50,179 bases of DNA from Chitinophaga pinensis (lineage in GTDB: Bacteria; Bacteroidota; Bacteroidia; UKL13-3), in the NCBI GenBank assembly GCA_945870425.1, contig CAMBSD010000009.1:1-50179 (forward strand). The letters are read 5' to 3'. Numbering within the stretch: position 1 is the first letter of the stretch; the number at the start of each line of letters is the position of its first letter. The notes under the pieces were generated by a model. The model was not told the origin of the DNA and did not search any database. It saw nothing but the letters and a program-made list of their open reading frames with translations. The translations under genes and the position numbers were made by a program. Of the stretch, positions 5,346-29,842 are shown piece by piece.

Positions 5346-5819
5346 TTATTCCAATAATTTTAACACATCCCAAATTAAGTCCATCTCATAGCCTTTAGAA
5401 GCTAAGTATTTTGAGGTCTTGTTTCTCTTTACCAAAACATTTTTGTCTTTTAAACTCGCCATTTTTTGCTCAGCCAATTGATTCAATGCAGTCCAGTAGT
5501 CATCTGCATCAATTTCTTTCATACCTTGTTTGATGCAGTAGTCAGAAATTTTTTTCATTTTCAATTCTTGAATTATTTTTCTTCTCCCCCATTTTTTCAC
5601 CCTAAACTTTCCACCTGCAAAGGCTTTAGCAAATCGCTCTTCATTCAAAAAGTTGTTTGTTATTAAATCTACTATTATCGCATCCGCTTCTTCATAATAC
5701 ACACCTAAATCAAACAATTTTTGTTTTACCTCCTCATGGCAGCGCTCCTGGTATGCGCAATAAGACATGAGCTTTAGCAATGCTTCCGACCTACTTAGGT
5801 ATTTTTTCTTGGCCTCCAT
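5346..5819 (-). CDS. recX: RecX family regulatory protein
   Basis: 157 residues, typical of RecX, a small all-helical protein that binds the RecA-DNA filament and limits its activity. Recognisable features are the three-helix repeats with YCAYQERCHEEVKQKL near the N-terminus, the FLNEERFAKAFAGGKF segment, and the WGRRKIIQELKMK basic segment that is a hallmark of the family. It is divergent from murF-alr, and recA lies on the other strand about 2.6 kb away, so the two partners are near but not in one operon. It is followed by a terminator at 5141-5175. The ATG at 5819 is the natural start. Confidence 0.9.
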   Translation of the reverse strand: MEAKKKYLSRSEALLKLMSYCAYQERCHEEVKQKLFDLGVYYEEADAIIVDLITNNFLNEERFAKAFAGGKFRVKKWGRRKIIQELKMKKISDYCIKQGMKEIDADDYWTALNQLAEQKMASLKDKNVLVKRNKTSKYLASKGYEMDLIWDVLKLLE

Positions 5820-5864
5820 TCCTGACTAGTTGATAACTGCAAGTATACGATTGTGTAAAATACT

Positions 5865-5872
5865 TACTTTTG
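5865..5872 (+). promoter_or_regulatory. Putative -7 promoter box for murF-alr
   Basis: TACTTTTG matches TAnnTTTG exactly and ends 16 nt before the ATG of the fusion gene, which implies a leader of about 10 nt. No -33 TTTG at 19-21 nt spacing was found. Confidence 0.4.
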
Positions 5873-5888
5873 TTTATTCAAATAAAAG

Positions 5889-19414: not shown

Positions 19415-22400
19415 TTATCTAATCAATGTTATAGAACCACGAGCTTGTTGTTCTGAACGACCTCTGAATCTGTAATTTAATACATAATAATAAACGCCTT
19501 CAGCACATTCTGAACCATCATTGAAACTCTTACCGTTCCATTTTACATTTGGATCAGTTGACTCAAATACTTTTGTTCCCCAACGATTATAAATAACCAT
19601 TTCGTATTTGTCATATCCTTGAATATCTACCTTAAAATCATCGTTTGTACCATCACTGCCCGGTGTGAATACATTAGGTATCTTAATTTTGAATTCAACA
19701 TTGTTATATATTGTCTTACAAATTGAATCTGGACAAGTTGGATTGCTAGTACTTGCTTGCAAGCAAATAGTAAATGTTCCAATATCATCAGCAAAATCAA
19801 GATTCATTAGATTAATATTTGGTTGGTCTGCTCTAACAAAAACTTTAGGATTTTCCCAAATTTTACGATTAGTATCCTTAAGTGGTGATTTAAGTGAACC
19901 GTCAGGAGCGAATACTGTCCAAGTATACACATCCGACAAGGCTGTATCAGAGAGATTGACAAAACTAAATATACCTTTAGTAGCAGTAGTGTCAATTCTA
20001 AAGTCAGCTTTGGTCGAAGTTGTAAATACCGTTACAGTATCACTTCTTTCGCAAGAGGCAATAGCTTCAGGAGAAGTTAATCCAAGAGAACGAATAAACC
20101 TGCTTGAAGAACCCACTATGTTATATGTTCCTCTTTCGGTAAATCTATATTGGAACGAACTATCACCTAAATAACTAGTTTTTAACAAACTATCAATTTT
20201 TCTTGTATAAGCTGAATCCCAAATATCAAATGTAAAGCGATTGATTGAATCAAAGTTCGACTTGTTTCTTATTTTGAAAATGTCACCTACACACATTCTT
20301 TGCTTAGATGTTTCTATTTTCACTTCAGGAGGAGCGACCACATATACCCTAATTGGAGGTTCGTTTCCACCAAATGTATCTGGCACACTAATAATAGGAC
20401 ATGAAGCATTACCTGCATCTATATTATCTACACCCAAGGCTGTTATATAGTAAATTCCAGGCTTATCATAACTAAATGTGGCTTCTTGTGTATTAGACCA
20501 ATTTAACCTTGCTTGATCTCGGTATTGGTTGCCAGACTGGACAATGGTTAATTGGGTAGCTGTATCTCTTGGATCTCGTCTATCAATATCAGGCGTACTC
20601 AGAACCCTTACACTATAAGGAACACAACCAACACTATCAGAAAGAAGCTTAATCTTAGGCCTTGGACCATTTAAGAATATTTCTTGATTAATGGTATCGG
20701 TACAGCCTTGTTCAGTATATACTGCCAATTGAACTATAAATTTACCATTCTGCCTGTAATCGTATATAGGATTTCGAATAATTGATTGGTAGTTAAATGG
20801 CGTTTTCTTTCTATCACCAAACCACCAGAATACATCAGTAATCTGATCACAAGGAGAACCATCAACTTTCCTACAACTGTCAGTTCCTGTCGTTTGCGGA
20901 TATGCAATTGATGAATCAAATAATTGAACTGTATCTCGACAATTAAAAGCGAGGATATTACTCTTACTAGTGAATTTAGGTCTTGGTTCCATTACATAAA
21001 TATACCTAAAGCATGTATCCCAATATCCGGCACTATCTCTTGTGTACATACTCACTTTATACTTACCCGCTTTGGTAAATTTGTGCTTAGGCACTTGTAC
21101 CATATTTGCATCCGTTATACCATCTGATTCCCAATCCCAATAAATACGCTCTTTGAAATAGGTTCTTTGCAAACCTGTAACAGGGTCAGTCCAAAATGTA
21201 GGAGGTGTACCAAATGTTTTGAAAGTATCAATTGGATAGCCATAACTAGCATTTCTCCAATCGTCAAAAGATCTAATTGAAGGTAACCATGGATCAGCAG
21301 TAAAAGGGAAAGTATCAACAGCTATATCTGGTCTGTAGAAACATTGGTATGGAATCCAATACCTAACATAATCCACAAATTGAACCTCTTCCCCTAAACA
21401 AACCAAGGTATCAGATACATAGAAAGTATCGATAATTCCAATGGCTACAGATCTTTGATATCCTCTAGCACAACCATTTTGTGCTCTTAAAATCCTTTGA
21501 ATAGGGGTTACTTCCCATCTTCTTCCATCGGCAGCCACACTATTTGGATCTTTCATCTCAAAAGAGGTTAAATTATATTTATGTTTAACGGGAGCTAAAA
21601 AGAATGCAGAATCATAAATATACTTAACGGTATCAATTTTCTGAGGCGGTAATCGTTTTTGTTTATCGCCACATTGCCAAATGGTATCTATCCTTAAGTC
21701 AATTCTAACACGTTTACCCACATCAAAAACACTATCCAAGTATACTTTAGGATTGGTTGGATCTTGTCTATCTATAGTGAATCGTTTCCTTGCTACAGGA
21801 ATAGGTGTAGTTTGCTCACCTGTAACATAGAATGAATCAACTGTTTCAAATCCATCACCCCAAATCCATGCATCAGATAACATAAATTTTTGAACAGGCA
21901 GCGTAGGCACACAAGTAACTGTATCACCTCTACCTCTAAGTAAGTTACTACAAAAATAAACATTGGTATCAGCTTTGGTATACGGCAATACATTAAAGGC
22001 TGCTTCCAAACCCAGGATTTGAATAAAATTATGGTACCAAATAGTATCCGACAAACAATCCGGATCTGGCTTGCTACAATCAGTTCCATTACATCCATTT
22101 CCTATAATCAAACCTACTGTTATGAATCCATCACGCTGAGCAGCTAAAGCTCCCATATGCCCAAAACCTGTGGCAGCTGGAGATTGATAGTGAGTCCAGT
22201 TTACACCTGTTCCACCACCATCATTGATACTAGTCCAAAGCGTCATGGGATTAAACTGACCTGTATTATTATAAGCTGGGTAAGCATATCCACCGGTATT
22301 AACTGGCGAATTAGAAGCATCAAATGGAACAAAAGCATCAAGCACACAAGGCGTATTATCATTCCTATCGAATAATGAATCGTAATTAAATAACAAATAA

Positions 22401-25315
22401 GATCTACCACATGATGGAGCCGTTTTACCCGCCAAAACATTGGAAAGTTCAAATCCAACACCAGTGCGAGGTCCTAAATCAAGCCCAGGGCATTCTTTAC
22501 CATCTGGATTTTTGCCTAATCCCCAAGCGTCTGCTTTCATGAATTGTAATTGTGTATTTGAACTTCCATTACAATCAAACTTTGATAGTAATGTATCATC
22601 AACATATTTGTAAATAGAATCTAATCCGGTAAGTTTACTTTTAATTGGGAATTGCCTTCTAACTATACCTTTTTCATCTACAATAAATGAATCAGAGGCT
22701 TCTGAAGCGTTATTTGATGAATCTTGCATGAATAATCTTACTGTAATACATTGGGTTATAACCCTATTGAAAATGTATCTATACAAAGACATTTTCGTTC
22801 CAGGTACCTTTTGTTTACCTCTATATCTTCTTAGTGCACCATTTGGTAGTGTGTCTAATGGATCGGTTATGGTTACAAATGTAGAAGTATCAAAACGGGT
22901 TCCTGCTGGAATGGTGTAATATTTAACTTTTCCATTTTCTCTGTAAAATGGATAACCTAAAGCAGCAGCAATCGGATCTGGAATTGGAGCGTTGGTGGTT
23001 ATAGGTGTATTTGGCCTTAAATCATTTGGCCACATATTGGTCATGGTATCAATTCGGGTAGGGAAAGCATATAATGGTTTATTCCAAGATGATGTATCAA
23101 TAGGTTGAACCCAATTTTTTCCAGCTGGAGGTACTTCATTAGTAGGCCATTTAGTATATCCTATAGCCCATCTAGTTGTATCATAAGGTGGATAATCATG
23201 TCCATTTAAATGCCAATTAAATAATTGCTCCCAACCCTGATATGTATGAATTGGCAATGTATCATGAGACCAACGACATTGTTGCAAACGTCCGTCATAG
23301 GCACGACCATTATTAATAAAATGACCATCTGTATTGTTGGCCATGTTACCAGCATCAGTAAATAATCTCCTTCCATTTTGAGGTGGATACAGATGAGGTG
23401 TAGAGTATGAAGTACATGCTGGAGCCCATCTTTGATCACCAAAATCCCATTTAATATACAAATGTTCAGACTGATATACAGTTGAATTATTAATAAACCA
23501 TACTGGTCGATCAGCTGGACATTGAGATTGCTGGTAAGGGAAAATAATATCTTTGTTCCAAACCGGAGGATTTGGCGGTGCTGGATTTGGAATACTCACA
23601 CTTGGACCTAAAATATTTACACCATATCCAAATAGTTTTGAATTATCAATGTATTTGCTCGAATCTCGAATATCTGATGAAAAGAAACGGAAAGATAGCA
23701 TACTATCAGTTGGTATAACATAGTATGGCAAACTATCTCTCGTAAATTGCACTTTCTTCAAATTATTGCCATACATATACCAAGGCTGATAAACAGTATC
23801 AATTGGTCCAACTATAGTATCCAACCTATTGTAAAAATTTTTGTATAAAGAATATTTACCAAAGCTAGGGTTGGCAGATAAAATTGGATTCAATTTTCTT
23901 CCATAAAAAGTATTAAATCGAGGAGGATTAGCCCAATCAACTGTAACACCGGCTAAACCGGCCTGATTAAATTGTGAATATTTAGGGTCTAAAATAGTAT
24001 CTACTCTAGAGTAATAAAAGAATGTATCAGCAGGTTGATTAGGGCAATATAAAACTAAAAATGGATAATATTGACCTGTTGATTGATATTTGTATGGGTC
24101 TGCAGGATTTTGGTCATCCTTATAGCATAAAGGAGGCTGCTGCTGATTAGGATCATTATAATTCCAAGTCCAGTGAATATCACTTGCACCAATTCCTCTA
24201 AGTGGATAATTATTGTAGAGGAAAATTTGCGCTTGATCTGGGCTTAAACAAACGGAGTCCCCCGCAAATTCAGTTGCCCCATCAAATGGGTCCGTTCTTC
24301 TAGCTTGCAAATCTATCCTAATAACAATATTTTCTGGCCATACTTGGCTAGGATCCATAGAAACAGAGAAACTATCAGAACATACTGAACGCTTGTCATA
24401 AATTACCAAAGAAGGATTAAAACGACCCTCCTTTTTATATGTATACAAAAATTTAGCACCCAAATAGGTGTTTAATTCTTGCTGAGTAGCTGGGTTACTA
24501 GATACAATTACTGAATCATCACCAAAGTACCATTTAAATGATTTCACTTGGTTTGGGGCTATATTGGATGCATTTAAAAAGCTGTAGGTAGAGTAATTAC
24601 AAGAGGCTTTTCCTTCTACAAAAAAACGAGATTTTACATTAGGTGCAATATAAACTCTCTTTCTATCCACAGCGGCTACACTGTTTATACAACCAAGGGA
24701 GTCTGAAACTTGTAATGAAACAGCAAAACTTCCATACAAACCATATCTATGATAAACAGTATCACTTAAATCGTCTAATGTATTACCATCCCCGAAAATC
24801 CAATATGCGCTGGCAATTCCATTACTTGGCAGCACAGGATTTTTAAGAGATAAATTTCTAAATCCGTTAAAATTATTGGCTAAACATTGAGAGTCTAAAG
24901 TAATGGTTTTGTATGCAACAACAGGCAAACTGTATACAGTATCAAGCCAAGTGCTTGTGTATGTTGGACCACCATTTTTAATCTTTGTGATACCTGTAAT
25001 GGTATAAATACCAGGTGCTTTATATACATAGTTGTATGCATTATTTATTGGCCCTCCGGGAGCAGATGGCTTGTTGATGACCGCATCAACATCTCCATTA
25101 CCAAATTTTATGGTATAAGATTGCACATCCATAGGATTGATGTTTACCAAATCAAAGGTAAATACCGTTTGTTGACCCAAACAAAGAATGTTTGGTCCAA
25201 CTCTGATATTGGATGATTGCGCTCTGACAGCAGCCAAACCAATCAAGAAAATGGATAGAAAGAGAAAAAGTCCCTTGCCCCATTTGTAGGTCTTCGTTAA
25301 ATATATGTTTTGCAT
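19415..25315 (-). CDS. Giant T9SS type B surface protein with PKD-like domains
   Basis: 1966 residues. A signal peptide (LFLFLSIFLIGLAAVRA, then Gln) precedes a very long chain of PKD/Ig-like beta domains (repeated forms such as YTIKFGNGD, AYWIFGDGN, VFWWFGDRKK, WDWESDG). The last 90 residues are the gliding-motility-associated C-terminal domain: PNVFTPGSDGTNDDF, IYNRWGTKVFES, WNGKSF, GVYYYVLNY, ending in ITLIR. This directs export by the type IX system and surface attachment. The many Asp, Tyr and Pro residues and PKD folds suggest a cell-surface adhesin or gliding or matrix protein; no catalytic domain was seen. It lies 70 nt downstream of the putative anti-sigma gene and is likely in the sigma operon. 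Confidence 0.9.
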   Translation of the reverse strand: MQNIYLTKTYKWGKGLFLFLSIFLIGLAAVRAQSSNIRVGPNILCLGQQTVFTFDLVNINPMDVQSYTIKFGNGDVDAVINKPSAPGGPINNAYNYVYKAPGIYTITGITKIKNGGPTYTSTWLDTVYSLPVVAYKTITLDSQCLANNFNGFRNLSLKNPVLPSNGIASAYWIFGDGNTLDDLSDTVYHRYGLYGSFAVSLQVSDSLGCINSVAAVDRKRVYIAPNVKSRFFVEGKASCNYSTYSFLNASNIAPNQVKSFKWYFGDDSVIVSSNPATQQELNTYLGAKFLYTYKKEGRFNPSLVIYDKRSVCSDSFSVSMDPSQVWPENIVIRIDLQARRTDPFDGATEFAGDSVCLSPDQAQIFLYNNYPLRGIGASDIHWTWNYNDPNQQQPPLCYKDDQNPADPYKYQSTGQYYPFLVLYCPNQPADTFFYYSRVDTILDPKYSQFNQAGLAGVTVDWANPPRFNTFYGRKLNPILSANPSFGKYSLYKNFYNRLDTIVGPIDTVYQPWYMYGNNLKKVQFTRDSLPYYVIPTDSMLSFRFFSSDIRDSSKYIDNSKLFGYGVNILGPSVSIPNPAPPNPPVWNKDIIFPYQQSQCPADRPVWFINNSTVYQSEHLYIKWDFGDQRWAPACTSYSTPHLYPPQNGRRLFTDAGNMANNTDGHFINNGRAYDGRLQQCRWSHDTLPIHTYQGWEQLFNWHLNGHDYPPYDTTRWAIGYTKWPTNEVPPAGKNWVQPIDTSSWNKPLYAFPTRIDTMTNMWPNDLRPNTPITTNAPIPDPIAAALGYPFYRENGKVKYYTIPAGTRFDTSTFVTITDPLDTLPNGALRRYRGKQKVPGTKMSLYRYIFNRVITQCITVRLFMQDSSNNASEASDSFIVDEKGIVRRQFPIKSKLTGLDSIYKYVDDTLLSKFDCNGSSNTQLQFMKADAWGLGKNPDGKECPGLDLGPRTGVGFELSNVLAGKTAPSCGRSYLLFNYDSLFDRNDNTPCVLDAFVPFDASNSPVNTGGYAYPAYNNTGQFNPMTLWTSINDGGGTGVNWTHYQSPAATGFGHMGALAAQRDGFITVGLIIGNGCNGTDCSKPDPDCLSDTIWYHNFIQILGLEAAFNVLPYTKADTNVYFCSNLLRGRGDTVTCVPTLPVQKFMLSDAWIWGDGFETVDSFYVTGEQTTPIPVARKRFTIDRQDPTNPKVYLDSVFDVGKRVRIDLRIDTIWQCGDKQKRLPPQKIDTVKYIYDSAFFLAPVKHKYNLTSFEMKDPNSVAADGRRWEVTPIQRILRAQNGCARGYQRSVAIGIIDTFYVSDTLVCLGEEVQFVDYVRYWIPYQCFYRPDIAVDTFPFTADPWLPSIRSFDDWRNASYGYPIDTFKTFGTPPTFWTDPVTGLQRTYFKERIYWDWESDGITDANMVQVPKHKFTKAGKYKVSMYTRDSAGYWDTCFRYIYVMEPRPKFTSKSNILAFNCRDTVQLFDSSIAYPQTTGTDSCRKVDGSPCDQITDVFWWFGDRKKTPFNYQSIIRNPIYDYRQNGKFIVQLAVYTEQGCTDTINQEIFLNGPRPKIKLLSDSVGCVPYSVRVLSTPDIDRRDPRDTATQLTIVQSGNQYRDQARLNWSNTQEATFSYDKPGIYYITALGVDNIDAGNASCPIISVPDTFGGNEPPIRVYVVAPPEVKIETSKQRMCVGDIFKIRNKSNFDSINRFTFDIWDSAYTRKIDSLLKTSYLGDSSFQYRFTERGTYNIVGSSSRFIRSLGLTSPEAIASCERSDTVTVFTTSTKADFRIDTTATKGIFSFVNLSDTALSDVYTWTVFAPDGSLKSPLKDTNRKIWENPKVFVRADQPNINLMNLDFADDIGTFTICLQASTSNPTCPDSICKTIYNNVEFKIKIPNVFTPGSDGTNDDFKVDIQGYDKYEMVIYNRWGTKVFESTDPNVKWNGKSFNDGSECAEGVYYYVLNYRFRGRSEQQARGSITLIR

Positions 25316-25385
25316 GGTTTTATATGATTTTCTCTCTAATTATAATTTTGCTAACTTATCTATTAATTTTTACTTATTCAACAAC

Positions 25386-26294
25386 TTATCTTGTTAAAAG
25401 AATAAATCCTGATTTTTGTCGAAATTCTTCTATTCCTTTGTATTGATAATCAAACATATAAAAGTACTTGCCCGGTTCACAATTTTCTCCCGATTTGAAA
25501 TGTTGACCATTCCAACGAATATCTTTCTTGAAACTTTCAAAAACCATGTTGGCTTTTGAGTCGAAAATCCTTAGTCTATAGGTGCTTTCATTTTCTATTT
25601 TAATAACAAACTCCTTATTCAAATTATCATCATCACCAGGTGTGAAAGTGTTTGGAATTTCAGGAGCTATTAAGGTATCAACATCGGCTAAAGTAGAGGT
25701 TTGGGTGATAAGTTCCGGTTCTATTATGGTTACGTTTTCAACTATAGGAGTTTTCACAATTACCTTTTCGACCAGAGTTGGTAGTTGCGGTGTTTCATTT
25801 ACTGACGACCTTAGTTCGGCTTTTAGCTCTTCATTTTCAATATTAGAAGACTTTTGAGCAATGCCATTTTCAAACATAATACTTTTTTCAGCAATTGGCT
25901 TGCTAAGCTGATGTTTGCGCTCAAAAATAAGGTCTGAACTAGGAGGAATTATTGGCCTTTCATCAACAATATAAGGTTCATCAACGATTGAAGGATTATC
26001 CTTAAGTGCAGGAGCTTGAACATTTGAGCTATTTGAAACTTGTACAATTTTATCCTCACTTAAAATTACTACAGAAGCTCCTATTGAAGTAACAAATAAA
26101 GAGAACATTATGGCTTTAGAGGCAACCGACATAGATTTAACAGCCGAAACAAATTTACTCGTTGCAGATGCATTGCCCATTGCAGGGTGCTGACTCAAAC
26201 TTTGCCAAACCTCAGCGGGGGGCTCAGGAGCAAAGGAGTCGAACTGCTGCTTTAGCAAATCGTCAAATTGTTCTATGTTATCTATCTTTTTCAA
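25386..26294 (-). CDS. Putative anti-sigma protein with membrane helix and CHU_C-like periplasmic domain
   Basis: 302 residues in three parts. Residues 1-58 are cytoplasmic, with the FAPEPPAEVWQSL motif typical of Bacteroidota proteins paired with ECF sigma factors. Residues 60-78 form one membrane helix (AIMFSLFVTSIGASVVIL). A long Pro/Glu/Ile/Val-rich linker follows, and residues 211-302 match the gliding-motility-associated C-terminal domain (PNTFTPGDDDNLNKEF, WNGQHF, GKYFYMFDYQYKG, ending ILLTR). The core IYNRWG motif is degenerate (IFDSKAN). There is no cleavable signal peptide, so the protein should stay in the inner membrane. The start overlaps the sigma gene by 17 nt. The anti-sigma role is inferred from context and architecture. 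Confidence 0.75.
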   Translation of the reverse strand: MKKIDNIEQFDDLLKQQFDSFAPEPPAEVWQSLSQHPAMGNASATSKFVSAVKSMSVASKAIMFSLFVTSIGASVVILSEDKIVQVSNSSNVQAPALKDNPSIVDEPYIVDERPIIPPSSDLIFERKHQLSKPIAEKSIMFENGIAQKSSNIENEELKAELRSSVNETPQLPTLVEKVIVKTPIVENVTIIEPELITQTSTLADVDTLIAPEIPNTFTPGDDDNLNKEFVIKIENESTYRLRIFDSKANMVFESFKKDIRWNGQHFKSGENCEPGKYFYMFDYQYKGIEEFRQKSGFILLTR

Positions 26295-26832
26295 TATGAA
26301 TGTTTAACTTCTTTAGTTCGCTTGCAAAAGCAACTCTAGCTCTAGATAATTGTGATTTGGAAGTTCCTTCGCTAATCTCCATGATCTCAGCTATTTCAGC
26401 ATGGCTATACCCTTCAATGGCATATAGATTCAGTACTGTTTTATACCCAAGTGCCAAATTATTCATTGCAATTAGCAGCTCTTTTTGAGAAATTCTTTCT
26501 AAAGAAAAACTGCTAAACGATATTTCAACTTGCTCGTATACATCGCTTTGACCTGTATGTACTTTGTTTGATCGATAAAACTCGAGCGCTGTATTTACCA
26601 TCACTCTTTTAATCCAACCTTCAAAACTGCCTTTAGCAGAATATTGCGAAATTTTGGAGAAGATTTTTATAAAACCTTCTTGCAAAATATCCTTTGCATC
26701 ATCTGGATTTTGGCTATATCTTAAACAAATGCCATATAGAACACGCGAAAAATAATCATACAATTGCTTTTGGGCTTTTGATTCTCCCTGAATGCATCGT
26801 TTAATTAAATTTTCGTCAAATGGTACACTCAC
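26278..26832 (-). CDS. ECF-type RNA polymerase sigma factor
   Basis: 184 residues with sigma-70 region 2 (LRYSQNPDDAKDILQEGFIKIF, then FEGWIKRVMVNTALEFYR) and region 4 (AIEGYSHAEIAEIMEISEGTSKSQLSRAR), with no region 3, as in ECF sigma factors. It should direct RNA polymerase to a small regulon and be held inactive by the membrane protein encoded directly downstream, whose start overlaps its end by 17 nt. The start codon is GTG at 26832; no ATG fits. The likely regulon includes its own operon and perhaps the divergent surface-protein gene (inference). Confidence 0.9.
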   Translation of the reverse strand: MSVPFDENLIKRCIQGESKAQKQLYDYFSRVLYGICLRYSQNPDDAKDILQEGFIKIFSKISQYSAKGSFEGWIKRVMVNTALEFYRSNKVHTGQSDVYEQVEISFSSFSLERISQKELLIAMNNLALGYKTVLNLYAIEGYSHAEIAEIMEISEGTSKSQLSRARVAFASELKKLNIHIEKDR

Positions 26833-26900
26833 TTTTGTATTCTGTTAGCTATGATGATTAATTTTTAAAGATGGTTGCAAGCATAAAACTTTTTTTTATT

Positions 26901-26998: not shown

Positions 26999-29842
26999 TT
27001 GTCAATATTGGCTAGTAGAAAATTTTTCATATTGATTTTTAGTCTAATTGGATTCAGCCAAATTGCTATTTCGCAAATGGTTGATAAACCTATTTCTCAA
27101 AACATAGGTTTGCTTAAGGAGTTTGTTCCTAACCGAGGACAATGGAATAATGAGATCCTATACAGGTCGAAGAGTTCGGACCTTGATGTGCATGTTACAC
27201 GCCAAGGCATTAACTATTTTTTTTATAACCCAAAACAAATTGAACAAATAGCTAGTCATGCCAAGGCAAATGAGAAAAATAAAATTGACTCATTGCTTCA
27301 AATGCATTTGATAAAGCTTGAATTTATAAATTCAAATCCTGCTGATATTGAAATTGAAGGAACCCAAAAGCATTACTATAACTATTTCCAAGGTAAAGAT
27401 CCATCGCACTGGAAAGACAATATACACCCTTGCAAAACCCTTCATTATAAAAACCTTTTTGATGGAATTGATTTAAAAACAAACATCAATAAAACGGGGA
27501 GTATCAGCTATGATTATTACCTGAAACCAAATTCGAATATTGAGAATATAAAATTCAAAATAAGAGGAGCGGACAAGATAGCAGAAGAATATGGTGAGCT
27601 ATTTATTTATTATTCATTTGGCTATTTCAAAGAAAGCAAGCCATACGCATATCAAATAATAGAAGGGAAAAAGCATGAAATTGAAGTCAACTATAAAATA
27701 AATTCCGACCACACAATTGGCTTTGATATTATTGATGATTACAACAAAAATTATGAAATGCTAATAGACCCCGATTTGGTTTTTGCAACATATTCTGGAA
27801 GTTCAGTTGATAATTTTGGCTATTCAGCTACGTATGATGAAGCTGGTAATTTATACGCAGGTGGCATTGCCTTGGCAATAAGCCCATCAGTAGATCCAAA
27901 TGGTAAATATCCAACCACTCCAGGTGCTTTTCAAAGTAAATGGATGGATGGAAGTCCTACCACTATTTTTGTTCCGGGTAGTGGGAATTATGGCATTCCG
28001 CCATGTGATATCAGTTTAAGCAAATATTCATCTGATGGCAAAACTTTAATCTATGCAACCTTGCTTGGGGGCAGTGGTAACGATTACCCACATAGTCTTG
28101 TGGTAGACAAGCAAAATCATTTGGTAGTTTTCGGATCAAGTACCTCCGCAGATTATCCCGTAAAAAAATCTTCTTATGACACATCACATCATGGATTGCA
28201 CGATATTATTTTGAGTAAGTTTAGCGTTGATGGAGATAGTTTAATGGGTTCAACTTACATTGGAGGGAATGATGAGGATGGAAAAAACCAAGGCAGAGGC
28301 TTATTGTATTTTTATGCAGATGATTTTAGAGGTGATGTAATATGTGATGAAGATGGAAGTGTATTTGTATCAAGTTGCAGTTCATCCAATAATTTTCCTA
28401 CCACACCAGGCGCTTTCAGTAGAATATACAAAGGACTACAAGATGGGGTAGTATGTAAATTAAATAATGATCTAAGTAATTTAGAATGGAGCACATATAT
28501 AGGTGGCACTAAACAAGATGCCTTATATAGCATCGATTTCGATTCAAAGAAAAATATTTATTTGTCTGGAGGCACTGTCAGTAGTGATTTATACACCCAC
28601 AATACAGCCTACAAAAACATTCATGCTGAAAGTGATACCACAGATGGATACATTGCCATATTAAGTCCAGATGGAAAAACCATCAGCAGTGCCACTTATT
28701 TTGGCAAAAGCAAATACGACCAAATTTATTTTCTTGAATTGGATACAAAAAACAGTCCTGACATATGGGTTATCGGACAAACCGAAGACGATTATGCATC
28801 AAGTGCTGGAATTTATCATAACAAAAGCGGAAAATTATTTATAGCCAAATTCGATTCGAGCCTAAACAATTTAAATCTCCTGACTACCATTGGTTCTGGC
28901 CGAGCAAAGCCAGATTTAACCATCAATGCTTTTTTAGTGGATGATTGTAAAAGGATTTATTTAAGTGGGTGGGGAGGAACAGATTTAAGCAGTGGTGACC
29001 CTTCAAATTTACCTATTACTTCTGATGCATTTAGTAAGACCAACAATGGCGGGGAGTTCTATTTAATGATGTTGGATAAAAATGCATCTGGTCTTTTGTA
29101 CGCAACCTATTTTGGAGGCACAAAAACAAATGACCATGTGGATGGAGGAACGAGTAGATTTGATAAAAAAGGCATTGTTTATCAATCTGTATGTGCAAGT
29201 TGTCCAAATGAAAATGGCATTCATAATATAGCTGATTTCCCTGTCACTGGTGGAGCATATTCAGTTACAAACCCAAGTCCACGGTGTAGCAATGCCGTAT
29301 TTAAATTTGACTTTAGAATCAAAAAAGCACAATTTGATTTTGGTGTAGACTCTTGCTCAAATATTATTAAGTATAAAAATAAAACAGCAGGGGCAAGTAG
29401 TTTCATGTGGATTTTCCCCGATGGAGATACCTCCTATCTTGAAAATCCAATGAAAACTTTTAAACGTGGAGAACTTAAAAACTACAAATTAATGATGATA
29501 GCCGAGTTTGGAACTGTATGCGCTGATACAGCCATTATGAACATCAATTACAATGACAGTTTAGTGGCCTTGAAATTACCGAATGTATTCACGCCAAATG
29601 GAGATTTGAAGAATGACTATTTCAAACTAGATGGAAACATTTCTCCTTGTTATGATGGTGAAATAATTATTTACAACCGTTGGGGCAATGTGGTGTATGA
29701 AAGCAGTAGTATCAATTTTGCCTGGGATGGCACGGATGGCAATGGTAGCAATGTCTCGGATGGGGTATATTTCTATATTGTTCGTGTAAATGATATCAAA
29801 GGTAATAATACCTATCGAGGAACGGTAACTTTGATTAGGTAA
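26999..29842 (+). CDS. T9SS type B surface protein with SBBP-type repeats and a PKD domain
   Basis: 947 residues. A signal peptide (KFFILIFSLIGFSQIAIS, then Gln) is followed by an N-terminal beta-rich domain (about 40-260, opening with FVPNRGQWNNEILYRS). Beta-propeller-like SBBP repeats follow (about 270-770; repeated YATYFGG/STYIGG, FP-TPGAF and DG-I-KL forms). Then come a PKD-like segment (SFMWIFPDGDTSY) and the gliding-motility-associated C-terminal domain (PNVFTPNGDLKNDYF, IYNRWGNVVYES, ending VTLIR). It should be exported by the type IX system and attached to the surface. The start appears to be TTG at 26999, since no ATG precedes the signal peptide. Binding target is unknown. It stands divergent from the ECF sigma operon. 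Confidence 0.88.
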   Translation: MSILASRKFFILIFSLIGFSQIAISQMVDKPISQNIGLLKEFVPNRGQWNNEILYRSKSSDLDVHVTRQGINYFFYNPKQIEQIASHAKANEKNKIDSLLQMHLIKLEFINSNPADIEIEGTQKHYYNYFQGKDPSHWKDNIHPCKTLHYKNLFDGIDLKTNINKTGSISYDYYLKPNSNIENIKFKIRGADKIAEEYGELFIYYSFGYFKESKPYAYQIIEGKKHEIEVNYKINSDHTIGFDIIDDYNKNYEMLIDPDLVFATYSGSSVDNFGYSATYDEAGNLYAGGIALAISPSVDPNGKYPTTPGAFQSKWMDGSPTTIFVPGSGNYGIPPCDISLSKYSSDGKTLIYATLLGGSGNDYPHSLVVDKQNHLVVFGSSTSADYPVKKSSYDTSHHGLHDIILSKFSVDGDSLMGSTYIGGNDEDGKNQGRGLLYFYADDFRGDVICDEDGSVFVSSCSSSNNFPTTPGAFSRIYKGLQDGVVCKLNNDLSNLEWSTYIGGTKQDALYSIDFDSKKNIYLSGGTVSSDLYTHNTAYKNIHAESDTTDGYIAILSPDGKTISSATYFGKSKYDQIYFLELDTKNSPDIWVIGQTEDDYASSAGIYHNKSGKLFIAKFDSSLNNLNLLTTIGSGRAKPDLTINAFLVDDCKRIYLSGWGGTDLSSGDPSNLPITSDAFSKTNNGGEFYLMMLDKNASGLLYATYFGGTKTNDHVDGGTSRFDKKGIVYQSVCASCPNENGIHNIADFPVTGGAYSVTNPSPRCSNAVFKFDFRIKKAQFDFGVDSCSNIIKYKNKTAGASSFMWIFPDGDTSYLENPMKTFKRGELKNYKLMMIAEFGTVCADTAIMNINYNDSLVALKLPNVFTPNGDLKNDYFKLDGNISPCYDGEIIIYNRWGNVVYESSSINFAWDGTDGNGSNVSDGVYFYIVRVNDIKGNNTYRGTVTLIR

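Follow-up and report, generated by a model that had tools for sequence, protein, structure and literature searches.

Dma1 and Dma2, which belong with the Das / ECF21 sigma factors, are anti-sigma factors of Bacteroides thetaiotaomicron. They are built from an N-terminal sigma-binding segment, one helix, a long disordered tether and a C-terminal outer-membrane beta-barrel, and upon loss of Dma2 the adjacent ECF sigma operon is among the most induced (PMC13088901). The 302-aa protein described here resembles Dma in layout, with a putative sigma-binding segment at the N-terminus, a single helix, a disordered tether, a beta domain directed toward the outer membrane and an ECF sigma gene as neighbour. 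Dma ends in a beta-barrel, whereas the 302-aa protein ends in a domain resembling the type B signal of the type IX secretion system (T9SS), and its gene is usually followed by that of a T9SS adhesin. The original prediction, made from the DNA sequence, knew of no described regulator of this architecture. Dma has the same layout (PMC13088901), and in this respect the statement has to be corrected. No anti-sigma factor with a T9SS signal was found in our literature search, which had limited coverage of subscription papers.

Other known systems share single traits with the locus. The RsgI / SigI system of Clostridium thermocellum also combines a one-helix anti-sigma factor with an outer domain of the kind found in the regulated exported proteins, but it is Gram-positive, uses polysaccharide-binding sensor domains and involves an unrelated sigma family; RsgI has a self-cleaving periplasmic domain (PMC12203970). 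In the 302-aa protein the region from helix to CHU_C domain is predicted to be disordered. In the PorA - PorXY - SigP pathway of Porphyromonas gingivalis a protein with a T9SS signal feeds an ECF sigma pathway as well; PorA, however, is surface-exposed cargo that acts via a two-component system, and is no anti-sigma factor itself (PMC7712824). Type B cargo with its PorP/SprF carriers (for example SprB-SprF and PG1035-PorP; PMC12618676, PMC9143113) has the C-terminal CHU_C domain and its predicted fold in common with the 302-aa protein. The latter differs from such cargo in having an inner-membrane helix instead of a signal peptide and in the loss of the NRWG core.

In the window (the whole stretch of DNA that was analysed, 50,179 nucleotides), the sigma gene (26278..26832, minus strand) encodes a protein of 184 aa with Sigma-70 regions 2 and 4 (Pfam Sigma70_r2 and Sigma70_r4_2, both above cut-off) and the small size of an ECF sigma factor. 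Its ORF overlaps by 17 bp with that of the 302-aa protein (25386..26294, minus strand), a membrane-anchored anti-sigma-type protein with a C-terminal CHU_C domain, as seen from ORF, Pfam, hydropathy and a structural model. Downstream on the same strand lies a giant adhesin-like cargo gene (19415..25315), the 1966-aa product of which has a signal peptide at the N-terminus (recognised by eye), several PKD domains and a CHU_C domain at residues 1877-1964 (Pfam) that scores 40 with TIGR04131 at a cut-off of 35. The divergent neighbour of the sigma gene (26999..29842, plus strand) codes for a DUF7948 protein of 947 aa with CHU_C (Pfam). Gene starts were taken from the ORFs. The original prediction had named the order, overlap and lengths of the three minus-strand genes, the single membrane helix and CHU_C-related C-terminus of the second protein and the real CHU_C signal of the third, and our analysis agrees with it on all these points.

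The anti-sigma-type segment of the 302-aa protein (residues 1-40; 26175..26294, minus strand) was recognised by family alignment and profile homology. It follows the pattern NIDxLLKxxMxxFxPxxPxxxWxxI, and in the roughly 40-residue segment of 46 family members D11 and P26 are invariant and W30 almost so. The single membrane helix (residues 57-78; 26061..26126, minus strand) is apparent from hydropathy in all family members and from an AlphaFold2 model, which was built with 43 sequences and also predicts short helices at residues 7-19 and 29-34. No N-terminal Sec signal peptide was found in the 302-aa protein, where residues 57-78 are the sole hydrophobic stretch and lie behind the soluble segment. 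The following tether (residues 79-205; 25680..26060, minus strand) is predicted to be disordered, with pLDDT mostly <60, and is rich in P, E, K, S and T in the 46 family members. Between two species of the genus, identity reaches 85% in the segment and 87% in the CHU_C domain, as compared to 38% in the helix and 37% in the tether. This pattern is expected if both ends bind partners; it suggests two binding modules that are separated by a spacer.

Of the 64 genomes in the GTDB family of the window, 59 gave matches to a profile built on the N-terminal 88 residues, in some cases within other architectures, among them sigma-adjacent proteins with outer-membrane barrel ends. The N-termini of the CHU_C type and of these barrel proteins, which come from the same taxonomic order, were aligned by hhalign with 98.4% and an E value of 8.5e-15. 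Dma itself was compared by its published layout. The barrel model scored above cut-off in four of the seven proteins tested, just below it in L111 and L119, and gave no match in L112. Because the N-termini are homologous and the layout is shared, the CHU_C proteins look like a Dma-type plan in which a T9SS signal replaces the barrel; they are not filed as Dma members because they do not have the barrel. In the window's genome, a second sigma gene lies beside the gene for a 518-aa protein that combines this N-terminal segment with a barrel-like end (L111:5810-7904, G000:C15), a candidate for a Dma-type pair. In genus g3, the gene for a 1460-residue CHU_C protein comes after a barrel-type pair. 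That CHU_C had directly taken the place of the barrel in this operon was considered and rejected, as two g3 genomes (G020, G021) also carry the CHU_C type elsewhere.

A CHU_C-type tag normally sends proteins out through the T9SS. In the 302-aa protein, the T9SS type B signal-like domain comprises residues 206-302 (25389..25679, minus strand). Pfam CHU_C matches residues 212-299 with 49.6 bits at a cut-off of 27, whereas the score with TIGR04131, the NCBI type B sorting model, is 28.3 and below the cut-off of 35. Structure prediction, which had been suggested as a check on the C-terminal domain, returned the fold of a T9SS cargo signal, with pLDDT of 93-98 across most of the length (AlphaFold2). 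The best Foldseek match of the domain model in the PDB was a 75-residue chain in the T9SS translocon with its NucA substrate bound, and a finer alignment to the NucA signal gave Z 8.8 and 1.9 A over 72 of 75 residues; the signals of RemZ, RemA, PorU and PorZ were also among the structural matches. The fold alone is no proof of function, because domains of unrelated proteins score equally high. Together with Pfam CHU_C, the fold matches of the model support a C-terminal domain of the T9SS signal type. The predicted structure of the last 130 residues of the adhesin shows the four strands of the anti-sigma domain with no shift in register. The sole weighty PDB match of the anti-sigma CHU_C domain at the sequence level was the C-terminus of GhpA, the grappling hook protein of Aureispira (9flp_A 5813-5883; E 2.7e-6). 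For the anti-sigma-type segment, a sequence search of the PDB gave no convincing match.

We aligned 192 CHU_C domains, 82 from anti-sigma-type proteins and 110 from cargo (adhesins, DUF7948 proteins and the genome's other CHU_C proteins). The new finding is that NRWG, near-universal in cargo, is absent from every anti-sigma copy, though most of the signal is kept. The W of this motif is present in 0 of 82 anti-sigma versus 104 of 110 cargo domains (Fisher 1e-47, uncorrected for relatedness), while NxFTPNxDGxND, VFE, W-N/D-G, GxY and the final L-x-R are mostly retained in the anti-sigma copies. In the 302-aa protein, D-S-K-A (residues 245-248; 25551..25562, minus strand) stands at the N-R-W-G position of the cargo domains in the alignment; the CHU_C domain of the adjacent adhesin is intact, with NRWG at residues 1910-1913. 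In Flavobacterium johnsoniae, mutating any of five conserved motifs in the SprB signal stops secretion of a fusion protein (PMC12618676), and type B signals bind PorP/SprF barrels (PMC9143113, PMC12618676). We infer that the five motifs published for the SprB signal include NRWG. The anti-sigma CHU_C domain is probably not secretable. Because the NRWG core is universally lost, the original idea of a protein that stays in the inner membrane and reads the T9SS, or competes with its cargo, becomes more specific. In a tree of the CHU_C domains the anti-sigma label requires six changes, with support too weak to date its origin.

The pairing of a sigma gene with such a protein in related genomes had been proposed as a further check. 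Homologues were found in 50 of the 64 genomes of the family, and 49 family loci were fetched with their surroundings, the gene order being read where the contig was long enough. The order of sigma, anti-sigma-type protein and adhesin-like CHU_C protein of about 1500-2500 aa recurs in nearly all of them, and in most a divergent DUF7948-CHU_C gene lies on the other side of sigma. In all 46 complete family members examined, the gene adjoins sigma and the protein combines a single membrane helix with an end of the CHU_C type (counts of loci and motifs, here and below, are uncorrected for relatedness). The one close relative with a name, at 61% identity, is from a metagenome-assembled Bacteroidetes bacterium.

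At the level of the class, a search with the full-length profile, in which five candidates were scored per genome, gave matches in at least 119 of the 395 genomes drawn, some of them matches of CHU_C alone. Forty matching loci were fetched. In 36 of these a sigma gene directly precedes a CHU_C protein of 284-499 aa, and 34 of the 36 pairs come from 14 families other than the window's. The N-terminal segment was detected by profile in 34 pairs and by eye in the two others (L185 and L190, from the window's family). Since all 46 complete family members and 34 loci of other families show the pair, it is not due to chance; homologous pairs of sigma and CHU_C anti-sigma-type genes are widespread in the window's family and 14 others. 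This outcome speaks for the original prediction, as does the cargo-signal fold of the C-terminal domain. Another CHU_C gene lies directly downstream in 25 of the 36 class-wide pairs. Such a gene was not called in the remaining 11, among them one locus truncated where its contig stops, and coupling to an adjacent adhesin is therefore not universal.

A promoter-like motif precedes the sigma gene (26853..26880, minus strand). It consists of TTGCAACC (26880-26873), a 16-bp spacer and CATC (26856-26853), and in the window its 5' end is 48 bp upstream of the GTG start. It was identified by its count in the family and its fixed position: 36 of 45 loci have TTGCAACC ahead of sigma, with an expectation of 0 from shuffled sequences, and 39 of 47 have a wider form of the motif. 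Where the start was consistently called, the motif lies about 46-50 bp before the start codon, with CATC 16 bp past TTGCAACC. Most loci of other families have GCAAC(C/T) and a CATC-like box at similar spacing before sigma. Four sites were found in the window's genome, and the one with the 16-bp spacer belongs to the sigma operon. In six genomes of one genus the motif is also located 43-75 bp before the gene for a secreted ~228-aa protein (L205:3275-3958, with its equivalents in L206-L210), which is likely a second regulon member in this genus; the one copy tested, that of L205, has a type A T9SS signal. This distribution fits autoregulation and a small regulon. A broad regulon was rejected, since the family-wide recurrent sites that were read represent the operon, one secreted-protein gene and positions inside ORFs. 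Control of the divergent DUF7948-CHU_C gene was likewise rejected, as the motif was not seen on the strand of this gene.

Architecture, synteny, fold, motif loss and promoter motif are computed evidence. As the best explanation of the whole we propose, with confidence and doubt in about equal measure, that the sigma, anti-sigma and adhesin genes form an operon that regulates itself and encodes a T9SS cargo mimic that reads adhesin export. The N-terminal segment of the 302-aa protein would hold the ECF sigma factor at the inner membrane, and the disordered tether of about 125 residues would let the CHU_C domain reach through the periplasm as far as the outer membrane, on its T9SS side. There the domain would mimic a type B cargo signal, having the fold, the register and most of the conserved residues of the adhesin signal and never NRWG, and could dock, unsecreted, at a PorP/SprF-like carrier of type B cargo or at the complex that exports the adhesin. 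In this way the anti-sigma protein would report on the state of the export route, be it free, loaded or blocked. Pulling or proteolysis of the tethered protein, following a change at this route, may free the sigma factor, competition being another candidate release step. The freed sigma factor would act at the TTGCAACC-16-CATC promoter to transcribe its own operon, and would thereby set the supply of adhesin. An unsecreted, tethered mimic that occupies the carrier or the export complex appears as the most likely sensor principle, its chance of being right being close to even. More tentative, and in our view somewhat doubtful, is the narrower proposal that the anti-sigma factor is a non-secretable decoy cargo queueing for the type B carrier or the translocon, the occupancy of which switches adhesin transcription. 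We found SprA in the window's genome and in each of the 34 outside genomes that were checked. The window's genome has five PorP/SprF genes, none of them in the operon, a point that counts against the docking proposal.

The 302-aa protein might instead be exported and dock at the surface. It would then span both membranes and sense an outside signal as proposed for Dma, with the T9SS signal substituting for the barrel. The Dma-like layout (PMC13088901), the homologous N-terminus and a tether long enough to span the periplasm are in line with this, and longer anti-sigma forms in several lineages have PKD domains before CHU_C, like surface adhesins. The C-terminal Arg and most signal motifs are retained, too, but the NRWG core that nearly all cargo has is missing in every anti-sigma copy. 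We know of no precedent for the export of a protein that is still fixed in the inner membrane, and this also counts against surface docking, which we regard as unlikely. It is also conceivable, if rather improbable, that the CHU_C domain binds the co-encoded adhesin, or its signal, as it accumulates in the periplasm, and that sigma answers this backlog and not the state of the carrier. The gene linkage with the adhesin would suit such a sensor, as would the identity of the domain to the adjacent adhesin signal, which at 36% is higher than the 30% to the DUF7948 signal (n=30). However, several loci are without an adjacent adhesin, a known CHU_C-CHU_C interaction was not found, and the mirror-tree value of 0.78 for the adhesin signal is no stronger than 0.81 for the DUF7948 signal. 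Specific co-evolution with the adhesin signal was rejected, as these values are inseparable from general relatedness.

That the CHU_C domain is a vestige of a fusion with an adhesin, with no sensing and with sigma release by membrane proteolysis alone, is very improbable. Loss of NRWG and a TIGR04131 score below cut-off would be compatible with such decay, but CHU_C is the most conserved part of the protein within the genus, and it is retained in 15 families with the same motif pattern. We give hardly any credence to a membrane protein that is merely co-transcribed with sigma and has no anti-sigma role. No Pfam anti-sigma model matches the 302-aa protein, and its presumed binding to sigma is read from sequence. 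Yet a sigma gene directly precedes all 34 class-wide loci with a profile-detected N-terminal segment, while in the four fetched CHU_C loci without this segment no sigma gene adjoins, and sigma genes also neighbour those for proteins of other architectures that have a homologous N-terminus.

The CHU_C anti-sigma type is a concrete and widely conserved candidate for the means by which Bacteroidota fit the output of giant surface adhesins to what the T9SS can export. With the tethered cargo mimic as sensor, Bacteroidota that have this arrangement, in most cases next to the gene for a giant secreted adhesin, may regulate how much adhesin they make through a reading of their own export machinery. 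If true, the decoy-cargo checkpoint would couple secretion directly to transcription through an altered cargo signal, a feedback kept in many families of Bacteroidota. The Dma plan would be modular, with a barrel or a T9SS signal at the outer-membrane end. By the loss of NRWG, regulators can be told from cargo in sequence, and this mark allows proteins called T9SS substrates from CHU_C alone to be re-annotated.

Two further observations concern the barrel-type proteins and the adhesins. In the barrel-type candidates L112:8081-9463, L113:6686-8104, L114:6828-8246 and L118:2052-3656, the N-terminal segment is present two or three times in tandem, next to a single sigma gene. Within the last part of the adhesin (19415-19807 in the window, residues ~1837-1966), three cysteines located just before the CHU_C domain are invariant in 25 adhesins, and possibly form a disulphide or serve as a linkage point.
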